Of a DNA stretch of 64,000 nucleotides, positions 22,091 to 62,426 are shown in pieces; position 1 is the first letter of the stretch; each line of letters starts with the position of its first letter. Source of the DNA: Demequina globuliformis (GTDB taxonomy: Bacteria; Actinomycetota; Actinomycetes; Actinomycetales; Demequinaceae). The stretch covers positions 1,336,024-1,400,023 of the forward strand of contig NZ_BBRG01000001.1 of assembly GCF_000975155.1 (NCBI RefSeq), read 5' to 3'. A model generated the notes under the pieces. It saw nothing but the letters and a program-made list of their open reading frames with translations, was not told the DNA's origin and searched no databases. The translations under genes and the position numbers were made by a program.

Positions 22091-22312
22091 TGGCCCGCAC
22101 CCCCGCTGGCCCACACCGCCCGCAGGCCCTCATCTCGCCGTTCGGCGTGCGAAAGTGACTGAGCTTTGAAGACTGCCCCGTGTCGTTGTGCTGCGCGGCG
22201 CGGGGGCATGCGGGAATCTCAGTCACTTCGGTACACCCGCGCGTGCCTGTGTGCCGGTGTGCGCTTGAGAGCACCAGCGCCTCCCGGCTGAACCCGGGCA
22301 TCGGCCCTCGCC
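22091..22312. repeat. Large direct repeat, copy 1
   Basis: First copy of a block repeated at 22440-22690. It begins TGGCCCGCACCCCCGCTGGC, contains a 78-bp element (22152-22229), and ends in a shared stretch through GAGAGCACCAGCGCC and GCATCGGCCCTCGCC. The copies differ by substitutions in the element's left arm and by an extra segment of roughly 25 bp in copy 2 after the element. Confidence 0.8.
22152..22229. repeat. 78-bp inverted-repeat element, copy A
   Basis: AAGTGACTGAG (22153-22163) and CTCAGTCACTT (22218-22228) are perfect inverted repeats at the ends. Inside is CGTGTCGTTGTGC. Total length matches the five other copies exactly. No coding capacity. See copies B-F. Confidence 0.85.
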
Positions 22313-22439: not shown

Positions 22440-22690
22440 TGGCCCGCACCCCCGCTGGCCCTCACCGCCCGCCCGTCGGCCCTCATCTCGCCGTTCGGCG
22501 TGCGAAAGTGACTGAGGTTCCGACACTGCCCCGTGTCGTTGTGCTGCGCGGCGCGGAGGAGTGCGGGAATCTCAGTCACTTCGGTGCACCCGCGCGTGCC
22601 TGTGTCCCTGCGTGCTTTTGTGCCCGCGTGCCGGTGTGCGCTTGAGAGCACCAGCGCCTCCCGGCTGAACCCGGGCATCGGCCCTCGCCG
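22440..22690. repeat. Large direct repeat, copy 2
   Basis: Second copy of the block at 22091-22312, with an inserted stretch (TGTCCCTGCGTGCTTTTGTG region, about 22602-22628) made of further short TGCCTGTG/TGCCCGCGTG repeats. Suggests recent duplication, followed by slippage. Confidence 0.8.
22505..22582. repeat. 78-bp inverted-repeat element, copy B
   Basis: AAGTGACTGAG (22506-22516) and CTCAGTCACTT (22571-22581) form perfect ends, with CGTGTCGTTGTGC inside. It is nearly identical to copy A over its right two-thirds, as expected if the surrounding block was duplicated. Confidence 0.85.
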
Positions 22691-28718: not shown

Positions 28719-30194
28719 ATGCCCCGCGGCGACGGCAGGCTGACCCACGAACTTGACCCCCACGATCGGGGACCGCAGGATGCCTGCGGCGTCTTCGGCA
28801 TCTTCGCTCCCCAGGAAGAGGTCGCCAAGCTGACCTACTTTGGTCTCTACGCGCTGCAGCACCGCGGCCAGGAGTCCGCAGGAATCGCCACCTCAAACGG
28901 CGACAAGATCCTGGTGTACAAGGACATGGGGCTCGTCTCACAGGTCTTTGACGAGGGCGCGTTGTCCGCATTGCAGGGCCACATTGCCGTGGGTCACGCA
29001 CGCTACTCGACCACCGGAGCTTCCACCTGGGCGAATGCCCAGCCCACCCTTGGTCCCACTAAGCACGGAACGGTTGCGCTGGGGCACAACGGCAACCTCA
29101 CCAACACTCACCGCCTGCTCGAACTCGTCGCGGAGCGCCTCGGAACGGAGCGCCGCGACGCGATGCACGGCGGCGGCTGCACCGACACCGCAATTCTCAC
29201 GGCGCTGCTCGGATGGGACCGCTACGAGACCCTTACCGAGACCGCGCTGGAACTTCTGCCGCACGTGGAAGGCGCATTCTGCCTCGCCTTCATGGACGAG
29301 GACACCTTGTACGCCGCGCGCGACCCCCAGGGCGTGAGGCCGCTCGTGCTCGGCCGCGTGCCATCCGGTGGCTGGGTCGTCGCCTCGGAGACCGCCGCAC
29401 TCGACATCGTTGGTGCGGTCTTGGAGCGCGAGGTCGAGCCCGGCGAGTTCCTCACCATCAACGCCGACGGCGTGCACTCGCAGCACTTCGCCAAGGCCGA
29501 TCCCAAGGGGTGCGTGTTCGAGTACGTGTACCTTGCTCGACCTGACACCACCATCAACGGACGGTCGCTGCAGGCCGCTCGCGTCGAGATGGGCCGCCAA
29601 CTTGCGCGCGAAGCTCCCGTCGAGGCAGACATGGTGATGCCGACCCCGGAATCCGGTACCCCCGCCGCGGTAGGCTACGCGCAAGGTTCCGGGATCCCGT
29701 TTGGGCAGGGCCTCGTGAAGAACGCCTATGTTGGCCGTACCTTTATCCAGCCGTCGCAGACGCTGCGCCAACTCGGCATTCGCCTCAAACTCAACCCCCT
29801 GCGCGAGCAGATCGAAGGCAAGCGCCTGGTGGTTGTCGACGACTCGATCGTGCGCGGAAACACCCAGCGCGCGGTGGTCGCGATGCTGCGCGAGGCCGGC
29901 GCCGCGGAGGTCCACCTGCGCATCTCCTCGCCACCCATCCAGTGGCCGTGCTTCTACGGAATCGACTTTCCCACGCGCGAGGAACTCATCGGCGTGAAGA
30001 TGTCCGTCGACGAGATCCGTGACCACCTGGGCGCGGACTCGCTGGCCTACATTTCCGTCGAGGGCATGATCGACGCGACGCAGCAGTCCCAGGACCGCCT
30101 GTGCACTGCGTGCTTTACCGGCGAGTACCCCATCGAGCCACCCATCAACGCCAAGCACCTACTGGTCAGCCAGCCCGTGGAGGTCTCTTCGTGA
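28719..30194 (+). CDS. purF: Amidophosphoribosyltransferase
   Basis: 491 residues. First committed step of purine synthesis: glutamine plus PRPP gives 5-phosphoribosylamine. A short propeptide precedes Cys23 in DACGVFGIF, the glutaminase nucleophile exposed after cleavage. The glutaminase motif HRGQESAGI, GHNGNLTN and the PRPP loop VVVDDSIVRGNTQ are all present, plus cysteines near the C-terminus (CFYGIDFPTREEL, LCTACF) as in the B. subtilis-type iron-sulfur enzyme. AGGAGG precedes the ATG. Overlaps purM by 4 nt. Confidence 0.98.
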   Translation: MPRGDGRLTHELDPHDRGPQDACGVFGIFAPQEEVAKLTYFGLYALQHRGQESAGIATSNGDKILVYKDMGLVSQVFDEGALSALQGHIAVGHARYSTTGASTWANAQPTLGPTKHGTVALGHNGNLTNTHRLLELVAERLGTERRDAMHGGGCTDTAILTALLGWDRYETLTETALELLPHVEGAFCLAFMDEDTLYAARDPQGVRPLVLGRVPSGGWVVASETAALDIVGAVLEREVEPGEFLTINADGVHSQHFAKADPKGCVFEYVYLARPDTTINGRSLQAARVEMGRQLAREAPVEADMVMPTPESGTPAAVGYAQGSGIPFGQGLVKNAYVGRTFIQPSQTLRQLGIRLKLNPLREQIEGKRLVVVDDSIVRGNTQRAVVAMLREAGAAEVHLRISSPPIQWPCFYGIDFPTREELIGVKMSVDEIRDHLGADSLAYISVEGMIDATQQSQDRLCTACFTGEYPIEPPINAKHLLVSQPVEVSS

Positions 30195-31303
30195 CGCAGC
30201 CCAGCGAGCCCATCACCTACGCCGGAGCGGGCGTCGACACCGAAGCGGGCGACCGTGCGGTTGAGTTGATGAAGGACGCCGTGGCGCGTACCCATGGGCC
30301 TGAGGTGCTCGGGGGAGTGGGCGCGTTCGCTGGGCTCTTCGACGCATCTGCGTTGAAGGCCTTCAACCGCCCCCTGCTGGCGTCCTCCACCGATGGCGTG
30401 GGCACCAAGATCGTCATCGCGCGCGCAATGGACATTCACGACACCATTGGCCAGGACCTGGTCGCCATGGTCGTCGACGACATCGTGGTGTGCGGCGCTA
30501 AGCCCCTGGTCATGACGGACTACATCGCGTGTGGCAAGGTCGTGCCCGAGCGAATCGCGGACATTGTGCGCGGTATCGCCGAAGGGTGCGAGATGGCCGG
30601 GACTGCCCTCGTTGGCGGCGAAACGGCCGAGCATCCAGGCGTGATGGACGCCGACGACTATGACGTGGCCGGCGCAGCCGTGGGCGTCGTCGAGGCGGAC
30701 GCCGTGTTGGGCGCCGAGCGCGTTCAGTCCGGTGACGTGGTGGTCGCCATGGCATCCTCCGGGTTGCACTCCAACGGCTACTCGCTGGTGCGTCGCGTGG
30801 TGTCTCACGCGGGCTGGTCGCTCAACTCCACCGTCGAAGAGTTGGGCCGCACTGTCGGCGAAGAACTCCTTGAACCCACCCGCATCTACGCTCAGCTGTG
30901 CGTGGCACTTGCCGAGAAGACCGCCGGATTGCGCGCCTTCTCGCACGTTACAGGCGGGGGGCTGGCGGCCAACGTGGCGCGCGTCCTGCCGCAGGGTCTG
31001 GCCGCGACCGTCGCGCGCGACGCGTGGGACCTGCCCGCGGTCTTCTCGACCGTGCAGGCCGCCGGCTCTGTGCCGTGGAACGACCTCGAGTCCACGCTCA
31101 ACATGGGCGTGGGCATGGTCGCAGTGGTGTCGCCCGACGACGCCGACTCGCTGATCGCCGCCTCCACGGCCGCAGGTGTACCCGCGTGGACGCTCGGCGA
31201 GATTGTGAGCGACGACGGTCGCGCGACCAGCGCCGACGTGGTGCGCGGGTCCAAGGGCGTCGACGGCGGGGCCGTCTACCTGTCGGGCGCCTACCGGGCC
31301 TGA
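30191..31303 (+). CDS. purM: Phosphoribosylformylglycinamidine cyclo-ligase
   Basis: 370 residues from GTG 30191 that overlaps the purF stop (GTGA). Converts FGAM to AIR with ATP. Family motifs seen: TYAGAGVDTEAGDRAVELMK at the N-terminus, SSTDGVGTK, GETAEHPGVM, SSGLHSNGYSLVR and FSHVTGGGLAANV. The longer frame upstream lies within purF and is not used. In many Actinobacteria DUF3073 and bldC genes follow directly; here a DUF559 gene and two 78-bp elements intervene. Confidence 0.97.
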   Translation: MTQPSEPITYAGAGVDTEAGDRAVELMKDAVARTHGPEVLGGVGAFAGLFDASALKAFNRPLLASSTDGVGTKIVIARAMDIHDTIGQDLVAMVVDDIVVCGAKPLVMTDYIACGKVVPERIADIVRGIAEGCEMAGTALVGGETAEHPGVMDADDYDVAGAAVGVVEADAVLGAERVQSGDVVVAMASSGLHSNGYSLVRRVVSHAGWSLNSTVEELGRTVGEELLEPTRIYAQLCVALAEKTAGLRAFSHVTGGGLAANVARVLPQGLAATVARDAWDLPAVFSTVQAAGSVPWNDLESTLNMGVGMVAVVSPDDADSLIAASTAAGVPAWTLGEIVSDDGRATSADVVRGSKGVDGGAVYLSGAYRA

Positions 31304-31495: not shown

Positions 31496-31573
31496 AAAGT
31501 GACGGCGGATTCCGTGTGCCACCGTATCGGCCTGCGGCGCGACACGCACCTGAGCGCGAATGTCAGTCACTTT
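31496..31573. repeat. 78-bp inverted-repeat element, copy C (downstream flank of the DUF559 gene)
   Basis: AAGTGAC (31497-31503) and GTCACTT (31566-31572) mark the ends; the arms are more diverged than in A and B (GACGGCG against TGTCAGTCAC) and the inner part has GCGCGACACGCAC. Same 78-bp length. Its right end is about 40 bp from the stop codon of the DUF559 gene. Confidence 0.8.
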
Positions 31574-31612
31574 GCGACACGGATCCGCGGCCACCACGTG
31601 AGCGCGAGGTCT

Positions 31613-32452
31613 CTACAACGGACGAGCGAGATGGCGACGCAGCGCCGCGACCACCTGCTGCACCATCATCTCCCGGCGCAGCTCAACGTCGTAGCGGGTA
31701 AAACGCATGGTGCGGAGGCCCCATTCGGCGAGAGCAACGCGGTCGCGATCACGGTCGCCCTGGAATGAGCGTTCGTCCATGTGGTACGTCTGACCGTCTA
31801 CCTCGACGATGAGTGCATCGTTGACGACCATGTCTACCCGACCGACGCCAGGGAGCAAGACCTGTGTCGAGACGCGCAGGCCGGCCCTCACGAGCGCGAG
31901 CCGCGCCAGCGTTTCAGGTGGGGACTGCGCGCCGGAGTCACAGTAGCGCCGCAACCAATCCAGGCGCCGGCCCTCTGTGTAGCAAAAGGTCTCGAGGGCG
32001 CCGCGGGCGATGAGGTCGCGGTTGAGCGCAGCGTCGATCGCCACCAGTTGCCGCAAGGGAGACAGGCACCTTGATGACGTGTCGATCGCGTCGATGACTG
32101 ACAACTCAGGCACACGAGTGAAGTAGTGCGGGTGCGTTCCCGGCGGCAATGGCCGATGCCCGTGACCTGTCGATTGAGATCTGGAGACCGCAACATGCGC
32201 GCCCCTGGCGACATGCTGTTGGGGGAGTTCGAAGTGGCGCAATGCGGTGACACAGGTGGGCACCACGTGCCAGGCATGCTGGAGTTCATGGAGGTAGGAC
32301 GTGCCGGGCAGTACATAGGTGCCGCGCCGCACGCGCCGGACGCGCCCGTGCTGCACGGCCTTGCTCAGTGCGCGGTGCTTCACGCCCACCGCGACAAGTT
32401 GCCCTGCGCTTGCCACCCCACCGAGTTGCCTCAACGCACTCACGGGGTCCAC
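31613..32452 (-). CDS. AbiEi-like winged-helix / DUF559 (Vsr-like) nuclease-fold protein
   Basis: 279 residues from GTG 32452. Residues about 5-50 (ALRQLGGVASAGQLVAVGV, then RVRRVRRGTYVLPG) match the winged helix at the N-terminus of AbiEi-type proteins. The C-terminal 100 residues form a DUF559 domain related to Vsr/PD-(D/E)XK nucleases: VDMVVNDALIVEVDGQTYH supplies Asp and Glu of the likely metal site, followed by FQGDRDRDRVALAEWGLRTMRFT. The frame is intact. It is flanked on both sides by 78-bp elements (C and D) and lies between purM and the DUF3073 gene. Biological role unknown; such genes are often multicopy in Actinobacteria and are usually annotated only by domain. Confidence 0.85.
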   Translation of the reverse strand: MDPVSALRQLGGVASAGQLVAVGVKHRALSKAVQHGRVRRVRRGTYVLPGTSYLHELQHAWHVVPTCVTALRHFELPQQHVARGAHVAVSRSQSTGHGHRPLPPGTHPHYFTRVPELSVIDAIDTSSRCLSPLRQLVAIDAALNRDLIARGALETFCYTEGRRLDWLRRYCDSGAQSPPETLARLALVRAGLRVSTQVLLPGVGRVDMVVNDALIVEVDGQTYHMDERSFQGDRDRDRVALAEWGLRTMRFTRYDVELRREMMVQQVVAALRRHLARPL

Positions 32453-32844
32453 ATCTCCACAATTCCGCCTTTGGGTGTGGCGTAGGGCTTTTCCACAAGG
32501 GAAGTTGGGGCGGCGCTCGGCGGTGAGGGCGGTGCGGCCCGCTGTCCGATGGCGCTCCGCGGTGTGGGCCTTCCGGATGACGCCGCGCGCCGCGACGCCC
32601 GCCGTCGTTGGAGTCCCTCAGTGGAGCAGGTCGGTGCCGAAGTGACTGAGAATCGTGCGCCGTGCCGTGTCGCCGTGTGGCGCGACACGCACGCGTGCGC
32701 AAATCTCAGTCAGTTGAAGACGCTGCCGACCGAAGTGACGCGCACGACCACTCGCCAGGCTACGCCTGCGACCACTCGCGAGAAAGCGGACACGTGAGCA
32801 CGCGCGCCGGTCCCCACAGCCCCCACAGAGCACCCAGGCACGCA
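32453..32844. other. Gene-free region upstream of the DUF559 gene
   Basis: About 390 bp. It contains 78-bp element D (32639-32716) and no credible gene; the open frames on either strand are short and Arg/Ala/Ser-biased. The promoter of the DUF559 gene should lie in 32453-32640, where TTTTCCAC and TGTGG-containing segments are slightly AT-richer, but I cannot define boxes. Confidence 0.55.
32639..32716. repeat. 78-bp inverted-repeat element, copy D (upstream flank of the DUF559 gene)
   Basis: AAGTGACTGAG (32640-32650) and CTCAGTCAGTT (32705-32715) are the ends, with one mismatch. The inner dyad is clear: CGTGTCGC and GCGACACG. It lies about 190 bp upstream of the GTG start of the DUF559 gene. 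Confidence 0.82.
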
Positions 32845-32892: not shown

Positions 32893-33087
32893 TTAGCGGT
32901 CGTCGTCGGACCAGCGGTCGACGTACTCTTCGGTCTCCTCGGAGGCGGCGGAGTCCGGCGTGCGCTGACGGGATTCAGAGCCACCGATCAACTCACGCTC
33001 AAGGTCGCGCAGATCTGCGCCGTGGTTCGAGTACTTCAGCTGACGCGCGATCTTCGCGTCCTTAGCCTTCTGACGGCCACGCCCCAT
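32893..33087 (-). CDS. DUF3073 domain-containing protein
   Basis: 64 residues from ATG 33087 (MGRGRQKAKDAKIARQLKYS), which is the hallmark N-terminus of the DUF3073 family; the tail is acidic (EETEEYVDRWSDDDR). AAGGGACGG precedes the ATG. The family is small, actinobacterial and of unknown function, and usually lies beside purM and bldC. Here purM is separated from it by the DUF559 cassette. Very basic N-terminus and acidic C-terminus suggest a nucleic-acid-associated or disordered protein. Confidence 0.93.
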   Translation of the reverse strand: MGRGRQKAKDAKIARQLKYSNHGADLRDLERELIGGSESRQRTPDSAASEETEEYVDRWSDDDR

Positions 33088-33310
33088 GAACGCCGTCCCT
33101 TCTACTCGTCGCGGGCACACGCCTAAGCGGGCCCGGCGTGCTGAGTCTTAAGCGGTACTTTACAACGCGGGAGCACCATCTCGCGACCCCCGCTCAGCGG
33201 AGAAAATCGGAAAGTTCACCTGAAACCGCGTCATAGCTTGAATAAGTGTCCCTCTCAACCATCGTAGGGAGGCCCAACGCCGGGCCTGGGAGAGACCTAA
33301 AGGACAGACG

Positions 33311-35544: not shown

Positions 35545-35606
35545 CGCCAAATGGCTCCATTTCGCTGTTATGGGAACCCATAACAGCGAAATGGAGCCAT
35601 TTGGCG
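35545..35606. repeat. 62-bp perfect palindrome
   Basis: Two 30-nt arms are perfectly complementary with a 2-nt AA loop: the left arm begins CGCCAAATGGCTCC and ends TGTTATGGG, the right arm mirrors it. It is AT-richer than its surroundings and sits between two convergent genes, so it could act as a bidirectional terminator, but it has no T-run and resembles a REP/MITE-type element. GCATCGGCCC follows at 35621. Confidence 0.9.
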
Positions 35607-37723: not shown

Positions 37724-37801
37724 AAAGTGACTGCGATTTCCGCGTGGTCTCGTGTCGTTGTGCTCGGTGACACGGGCCGATGCCGGAATTTCAGTCACTT
37801 T
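37724..37801. repeat. 78-bp inverted-repeat element, copy E
   Basis: AAAGTGACTGCGATTTC (37724-37740) and GGAATTTCAGTCACTTT (37785-37801) are near-perfect inverted ends; the inner dyad is CGTGTC ... GACACG. GGGCCGATGC lies inside at 37774. Confidence 0.88.
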
Positions 37802-37890: not shown

Positions 37891-37968
37891 AAAGTGACTG
37901 CGATTTCCGCGTGGTCTCGTGTCGTTGTGCTGGGTGACACGGGCCGATGCCGGAATTTCAGTCACTTT
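37891..37968. repeat. 78-bp inverted-repeat element, copy F
   Basis: AAAGTGACTGCGATTTC (from 37891) and GGAATTTCAGTCACTTT (37952-37968). It differs from copy E by a single visible base (CTGGGTGAC for CTCGGTGAC). GGGCCGATGC lies at 37941. Confidence 0.88.
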
Positions 37969-61433: not shown

Positions 61434-61537
61434 ACGTCTACTCTCACACCTTCTGCGTGGGCCCTCATCCCAGGCGCGGGCGGCAGCGCGCAGCGGCTTC
61501 ACACCGACCGCGCAACACGCTACGGTGAGTAGACCGC

Positions 61538-61612
61538 ATGACACGGGGTGCCCCTTGGGGCTGAGAACACACCCGTTGAACCTGATCTAGCTCGTACTAG
61601 CGAAGGGATGTC
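61538..61612 (+). ncRNA. TPP riboswitch (THI element)
   Basis: Conserved blocks: ACACGGGGTGCCC, CTGAGA at 61561-61566, ACACCCGTTGAACCTGATCTAG and the closing CGAAGGGATG. The ribosome site GAAGGGA for thiM lies in the 3' strand of stem P1, so ligand binding would hide it. Represses thiM-thiE-thiD translation when thiamine pyrophosphate is high. Confidence 0.93.
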
Positions 61613-61616
61613 GCGC

Positions 61617-62426
61617 ATGACGCGTACGCCTATTGACCTGCCCATTCCGTCCGCGGACGTCCTGGAAGCCGTGCGCTCCCAGGTCCCGCTGATTCAGTCG
61701 ATCACCAATGCCGTCACGGTTGAGTTGGTCGCGAACGTCACCATTGCATTGGGCGCGACGCCCGCCATGGTGGACATTGTCGGTGAGGCGGGGCCGTTCG
61801 CGTCCGTCGCCTCCGCCGTGCATATCAACATTGGCACCCCGCACGCTGAGCAGCGCCAGGCCATGGTGGAGGCGGCCGATGCCGCAGTCGCCTCGGCAAC
61901 GCCATGGGTCTTGGACCCGGTGGCGGTGGGCATGCTGCCGGTGCGAACGGCCTTGGCCCAGGACCTTTTGTCGCGGCGCCCGTCCATCATTCGGGGCAAC
62001 GCCTCGGAGATCATTGCGCTCGCGGGTGTGGGGGCCGGGGGTCGCGGGGTCGATTCAGAGGACGCCGTTGAGGATGCGGAGGCCGCCGCGCGCGCGTTGG
62101 CGCGGGCGACCGGCGGCGCAGTAGCGGTGTCGGGCCCTGTGGACCTCATCGTGGACGCTGATCGCACCGCAAGGATCGCGGGCGGACACATCCTGCTGAC
62201 CCGCATCACGGGCGGCGGCTGCGCGTTGGGCGCGGTCATGGCGGCGTGTGTCGCCGTGCACCCAGAGCCGTTTGAGGCGGCCGCGGCTGCGAGCGACATT
62301 TACGGCCAGGCGGCCGAACGTGCGGCGGTTGTGGCGGCCGGTCCCGGGGATTTCCGGACGCGGTTGCTCGACTCGCTGGCGTCCATCCCGGCCGCCCAGC
62401 TGCGCGCGCAGGAGGCGGCCGCATGA
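61617..62426 (+). CDS. thiM: Hydroxyethylthiazole kinase
   Basis: 269 residues from ATG 61617 (MTRTPIDLPIPS). PLIQSITNAVTVELVANVTIALGATPAM and NASEIIALAG plus the C-terminal RITGGGCALGAVMAA, typical ThiM ribokinase-like motifs. Phosphorylates 4-methyl-5-(2-hydroxyethyl)thiazole for thiamine salvage. ATG 61608 lies within the riboswitch and is less likely. Overlaps thiE (ATGA). Confidence 0.95.
   Translation: MTRTPIDLPIPSADVLEAVRSQVPLIQSITNAVTVELVANVTIALGATPAMVDIVGEAGPFASVASAVHINIGTPHAEQRQAMVEAADAAVASATPWVLDPVAVGMLPVRTALAQDLLSRRPSIIRGNASEIIALAGVGAGGRGVDSEDAVEDAEAAARALARATGGAVAVSGPVDLIVDADRTARIAGGHILLTRITGGGCALGAVMAACVAVHPEPFEAAAAASDIYGQAAERAAVVAAGPGDFRTRLLDSLASIPAAQLRAQEAAA

Follow-up and report, generated by a model that had tools for sequence, protein, structure and literature searches.

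Nuclease genes bracketed by their own palindromes in Demequina and other actinobacteria: a probable REPtron-like two-part system

A 64,000-nt stretch of the Demequina globuliformis genome (hereafter the window; genome G000) raises the question of why a single nuclease-type gene stands between two palindromes at the purM–DUF3073 junction, and whether gene and palindromes belong together. The gene (31613..32452, minus strand) encodes a 279-aa protein with an AbiEi_4 winged helix (residues 7–49) and a Vsr-like MTES_1575/DUF559 nuclease domain (about residues 186–271); its left neighbour is purM (30191..31303, plus strand) and its right neighbour the DUF3073 gene (32893..33120, minus strand). A first-pass annotation had described the gene as bracketed by two 78-bp hairpin elements. 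The bracketing is confirmed, with element C (31497..31572) lying 40 nt downstream of the stop codon and element D (32640..32715) 187 nt upstream of the start codon; the hairpins are present as well, with a length of 76 nt rather than 78. These palindromes end in AAGTGACTGA..TCAGTCACTT, and the left arm of element C is decayed (AAGTGACGGCGG). Four solitary copies bring the 76-nt palindromes in the window to six. Copy A (22153..22228) is missing from the syntenic interval of G005, and copy B (22506..22581) is a local duplication of A together with its flanks; copy E (37725..37800) and its local duplicate F (37892..37967), which likewise includes the flanks, are both missing in G005.

The window protein was matched in Pfam by AbiEi_4 (E 1.9e-9), by the MTES_1575 REase at E 1.3e-7, under the family cut-off, and more weakly by DUF559 (E 7e-4). 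Among 40 family members, MTES_1575 was found in 39, AbiEi_4 in 36 and DUF559 in 34, with zero matches to Y1 transposases; a Pfam search of the window gene and these 40 members matched no known transposase family. Within the nuclease domain, D207, E217xD219, H224, D233 and R236 are invariant or nearly so in an alignment of 81 homologues. The same alignment displays C67, H109 and C129 of the middle domain as invariant or nearly so and H86 as 98% conserved, and these four residues may possibly constitute a metal site or a second DNA-binding part. Among PDB structures, the C-terminal domain matched 3hrl, a DUF559-type endonuclease-like protein (E 4e-7) for which we know of no link with repeats. 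The structure 3r3p, the homing endonuclease I-Bth0305I of the EDxHD/Vsr-like kind, gave a weak match only (E 0.74), and the AbiEi antitoxin (6y8q) and AbiGI (9hlo) gave weak N-terminal profile matches (E 0.25); PADLOC AbiEi profiles also matched the N-terminus. AbiEi/DUF559 nuclease genes are common in actinobacteria; to our knowledge, they have no assigned function and are usually annotated as antitoxin or unknown. Beside the window gene, an AbiEii nucleotidyltransferase gene is absent, the flanking genes being purM and DUF3073. MTES_1575 is the REase of giant HEPN proteins (PMC3710099).

Palindromes of the window type were then counted by two approaches. In the genome of 2.62 Mb, a covariance model recovered 10 distinct copies, at E values from 2e-20 to 4e-4, and an exact palindrome pattern matched 5 genomic places, against 0 for the reversed-pattern control; in relatives, the covariance model (R1) reaches close copies only. 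Of the 44 Demequina genomes, three (G000, G028 and G038) have a 73–74-nt form, and in all three it brackets the gene at purM–DUF3073. The 74-nt AGTGACTG palindromes are also found elsewhere in all 3 of the genomes with the cognate bracketed gene and in 0 of the 41 others, a genome-wide co-occurrence that agrees with the link between gene and repeats supposed in the first-pass annotation. Genome G012 carries four copies of a 63-nt palindrome with AGTGACTG ends and shorter spacing (L104, L108, L112); a bracketed gene of this type was not found in G012. Between the genes flanking E and F, G021 and G038 carry a different palindrome type, and the site may thus have undergone an exchange of palindrome type, as at other solitary sites.

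How general the bracketing is was examined with 81 homologous genes, most of them from Demequina (44 genomes), by asking whether the upstream and downstream flanks of one gene are more alike than the flanks of different loci. By simple local alignment of flanks, 52 of 67 scored higher than the 95th percentile of mismatched pairs, and 38 of 67 higher than the 99th. A strict detector, which requires a palindrome with matching arms on each side of the gene, returned a matched pair above the 95th percentile in 43 of 81 genes (4 expected) and above the 99th in 35; in 785 random Demequina windows of the same geometry, 3.6% reached the 95th percentile and 0% the 99th (Fisher 2e-31). Sub-threshold genes, about half of the sample, may still possess palindromes, several showing decayed pairs by eye, and at the window gene the decay of element C makes the detector settle on a different pair that matches by chance. 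In other actinobacterial genera, 14 of 28 genes exceeded the 95th percentile (1.4 expected) and 13 the 99th, one locus outside Demequina (L198) bearing two identical 61-nt palindrome copies. A second DUF559 family, whose proteins of about 305 aa combine a winged helix with DUF559, reached 20 of 24 (1.2 expected) and 18 of 24, respectively. The rule is therefore not confined to the window gene or its genus. These comparisons establish, at the level of sequence, the anatomy and recurrence of the palindrome–gene–palindrome arrangement, and with them the proposed gene–repeat link gains ground. A third DUF559 gene of the window genome (L008, G000:C7:212111-215464) has its own bracketing palindromes, which are of the GTGCATCTGAGTGCCGG type and measure about 50 nt.

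Palindrome arms begin with AAGTGACTGA, CTCCGCACGG or other sequences according to type. Each gene has outer arms of its own, which the two copies around it have in common. Arm similarity climbs with protein identity, from about 7 of 14 matches below 45% to 11.4 above 60%. It correlates with the winged-helix part of the protein (rho 0.26, 0/1000 permutations), modestly and in part through shared ancestry; for the nuclease part, rho is −0.01. At the level of sequence, the arms are gene-specific and follow the winged helix.

The insertion supposed between purM and DUF3073 has its empty-site counterpart: among 30 Demequina junctions read, the window included, the two genes are adjacent in 17 and carry a homologous gene between them in 13. 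The genes occupy few sites (purM–DUF3073, beside tRNA-Trp, hpt–ftsH and minor ones), and a freely transposing unit was rejected because the gene tree clusters by site. Where both neighbours of a same-site pair are at least 85% identical, the genes themselves have a median identity of 42% in the 19 pairs beside tRNA-Trp and of 52% in the 32 pairs at hpt–ftsH. The clearest case is L048/L149, where the gene is 33% identical between neighbours of 98 and 92% identity. On the upstream side, DNA homology of 96–97% runs out 0 and 30 nt before the palindromes, the stop codon of the upstream neighbour being just 10–50 nt from the palindrome; on the downstream side it picks up again 10 and 39 nt past the palindromes, and the intergenic DNA downstream of L048 is conserved to within 10 nt of its palindrome. 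Judged from these alignments, palindrome–gene–palindrome is exchanged as a block at conserved sites (purM–DUF3073, hpt–ftsH), the edges lying close to the palindromes. G013 lacks the gene and one palindrome, and its empty site retains a single decayed palindrome. Gene-free purM–DUF3073 sites, at 75–85% identity, do not define where an insertion begins and ends, since homology does not extend past the coding sequences. Of the unit that the first-pass annotation had considered mobile, free mobility is thus not borne out, as the genes keep to few fixed sites; exchange of the block at those sites remains, and what spreads is the solitary palindromes. At the purM–DUF3073 junction of G019 (L132), two decayed CAACCGGCGTAC palindromes enclose what appears to be the remnant of a gene, and the gene-free junctions of G027 and G030 (L114, L117) carry a single palindrome of another type (GCGGTTGATTCTG).

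Solitary copies are intergenic and number up to about 40 per genome. Forward matches of the CTCCGCACGG type amount to 27 in G017, 15 in G008, 11 in G035 and 9 in G020, while its reversed pattern has none in G017 and almost none across the genus. With regard to abundance, genomes that have the cognate gene contain more CTCCGCACGG copies than the rest (p = 6e-5), as a functional link would have it; orphan copies where a cognate gene was not detected (strand means of 11 in G028, 8 in G037, 5.5 in G026 and 5 in G014) speak against such a link. G028, which is related to G020 and has orphan copies, carries a different block at hpt–ftsH. Of 28 places read in G017, 27 match the full element, and all 27 measure 87 nt, or 97 nt with conserved ends. 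The layout runs GGACACTCCGCACGGA, an 8-nt variable unpaired spacer, CGACACGCCG, a variable centre of 28–29 nt, and the mirror image. Pairing of the outer spacers is at or below chance, with no T run after the last box. With this layout, the 87-nt element resembles a row of boxes for protein binding, spaced at constant distances, more than a simple RNA hairpin. Spacer identity among the G017 copies is mostly near background (median 0.44); the boxes being fixed and most spacers diverged, most copies would be old. L315 and L321, however old the remainder, are 91% identical inside the element with unrelated flanks on both sides, which marks them as one case of recent copying with exact ends. A second close pair (L323/L325) shares one flank, and four further pairs, 76–82% identical, have unrelated flanks; copying with exact ends rests mainly on the one pair. 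A target-site duplication was not seen around one recent copy pair; the empty sites are too diverged to show one. At two intergenic spots, G028 has CTCCGCACGG and G020 GAACCAAT palindromes, and at another, G042 and G006 differ in both arms together; independent events could also account for such differences of type at the same spot.

The window genome contains a second hairpin family (AAATGGCTCCATTT..AAATGGAGCCATTT), one solitary member of which lies in the window at 35545..35606; G021 and G038 have this hairpin between the genes that flank E and F. The family has 14 exact copies in G000, 13 forward matches in G021, and 11 forward and 13 reverse matches in G038, with none in the 41 other genomes. 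Its stem shows paired changes, 35 cells being altered on both sides versus 21.7 expected. Elsewhere in G000, a DUF559 gene (L009, G000:C8:1263737-1266934) stands between near-perfect inverted repeats whose outer ends are common to the second-family hairpin. This gene is likely the cognate of the family, and the two are apparently related as parent element and derivatives.

The closest known counterpart is REP/RAYT, a parallel already drawn in the first-pass annotation and well borne out by palindromes of the gene's own on its flanks and dispersed intergenic copies. A REP is marked by a foot, the tetranucleotide GT[AG]G next to the stem, and RAYTs are thought to copy REPs to other places. REPtrons comprise one stable nuclease gene per palindrome family, spreading palindromes, and coevolution of the two (PMC3116915, PMC6006769). 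The likeness extends to a single-copy nuclease gene flanked by its own palindromes, to the presence of more than one type in a genome, every type having a family of its own, to dispersed intergenic copies, and to a stable gene, spreading palindromes and coevolution. RAYTs, in contrast, are HUH Y1 transposases acting on single strands, whereas here an AbiEi-type winged helix is joined to a Vsr-like nuclease; the palindromes are about 50–112 nt, one family having two box pairs at fixed spacing, and block exchange takes place at conserved sites. With an enzyme that has no relation to RAYTs, the system does not belong to the REPtrons, although the analogy holds. EDxHD homing endonucleases such as I-Bth0305I share the nuclease superfamily fold with invariant acidic and His residues, as well as exchange at allelic sites, but the present genes have no intron host and do have palindromic edges and solitary palindromes, and the similarity is very weak. 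With AbiEi, which binds inverted repeats, and AbiGI the likeness lies in the N-terminal winged helix, the differences being the missing toxin partner, the fused nuclease domain, and palindromes on both sides and elsewhere in the genome; with 3hrl it concerns the C-terminal domain. Inverted-repeat transposons with MITEs resemble L009 and its matching solitary hairpins, but here a known transposase is missing and the gene is not multiplied. A search of the open-access literature found no precedent for a DUF559/AbiEi nuclease–palindrome system, whose protein and DNA parts are unrelated to those of REP/RAYT.

We consider a REPtron-like two-part system, selfish or domesticated, in which a winged-helix/Vsr-like nuclease is paired with its own palindromes, the best explanation, with a probability of roughly two in three. 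The winged helix would most likely read the gene-specific outer arms, and the nuclease would nick or cut at the palindrome; repair or rejoining would then copy the palindrome to other intergenic places, often onto existing palindromes. The gene would stay at few sites (purM–DUF3073, hpt–ftsH, next to tRNA-Trp) bracketed by two palindromes, which would serve as the edges of a block that can be replaced by a foreign allele, or can disappear and leave one palindrome behind. Binding, cutting, and the protein as the cause of copying and exchange are what we infer from this pattern. A bolder version, that these nucleases form an independent, actinobacteria-wide counterpart of REP/RAYT that cuts and copies its own multi-box palindromes at existing palindromes and swaps the gene block between strains at conserved sites, is tentative, its chances falling somewhat short of even. 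The two-part system would give AbiEi/DUF559 nuclease genes a candidate natural substrate, account for one kind of palindrome found between genes in GC-rich genomes, and add a second, non-homologous example of how RAYT/REP systems live, so that general rules could be compared. Its many natural protein–palindrome pairs could directly serve to work out the DNA specificity of winged helices.

Among the alternatives, a homing-type element, whose nuclease cuts the palindrome at an allelic site so that repair copies in the gene block, has the best prospects, although we regard it as doubtful. Block exchange at orthologous sites and the solo palindrome at the empty G013 site are what homing would produce, and the Vsr-like fold is common to I-Bth0305I, weak as the 3r3p match is; against it, the gene rarely fills solitary palindromes, G017 having one gene of the type among tens of copies. 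Homing may be one step of the two-part system rather than a true rival. The dispersed boxes might instead form a domesticated network, bound for a host purpose such as chromosome organisation or regulation and with no movement left. Retention of the genes at conserved sites, together with fixed boxes and the age of most copies, fits such a network, but invariant nuclease residues, at least one recent exact-end copy, same-spot type differences and block exchange point to continuing turnover and make it unlikely. A classical inverted-repeat transposon with the nuclease as transposase and MITE derivatives would account for L009 and the 14 exact solitary hairpins sharing its outer ends; most genes, however, have two separate palindromes instead of one inverted repeat, each palindrome type in the genomes read has one gene, the sites are fixed, no target duplication was seen around the recent pair, and the protein matches no transposase family, so that this reading, too, is hard to favour.

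The palindromes could also be terminators or insulators that surround small genes by chance, with no functional link to the protein. Single strands of the palindrome fold stably, and in eight cases read in G017 most solitary copies lie 16–34 nt past a coding-like frame, several of them between convergent genes. This reading would not anticipate gene-specific arms that are common to both copies and follow the winged helix, nor block exchange ending near palindromes; we give it little credence, and terminators as the main cause were rejected on the non-complementary outer spacers and missing T run of the 87-nt G017 family. Most improbable is a role as an anti-phage system or AbiE toxin–antitoxin component, the first-pass annotation having considered a defence unit. 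The PADLOC matches at the N-terminus speak for it, but the genes are long retained at fixed sites and purM and DUF3073 adjoin where an AbiEii partner gene would be expected; it was rejected for want of that partner, and nothing else supports it. Apart from these elements, the window contains an ordinary TPP riboswitch (Rfam RF00059) at 61534–61625.
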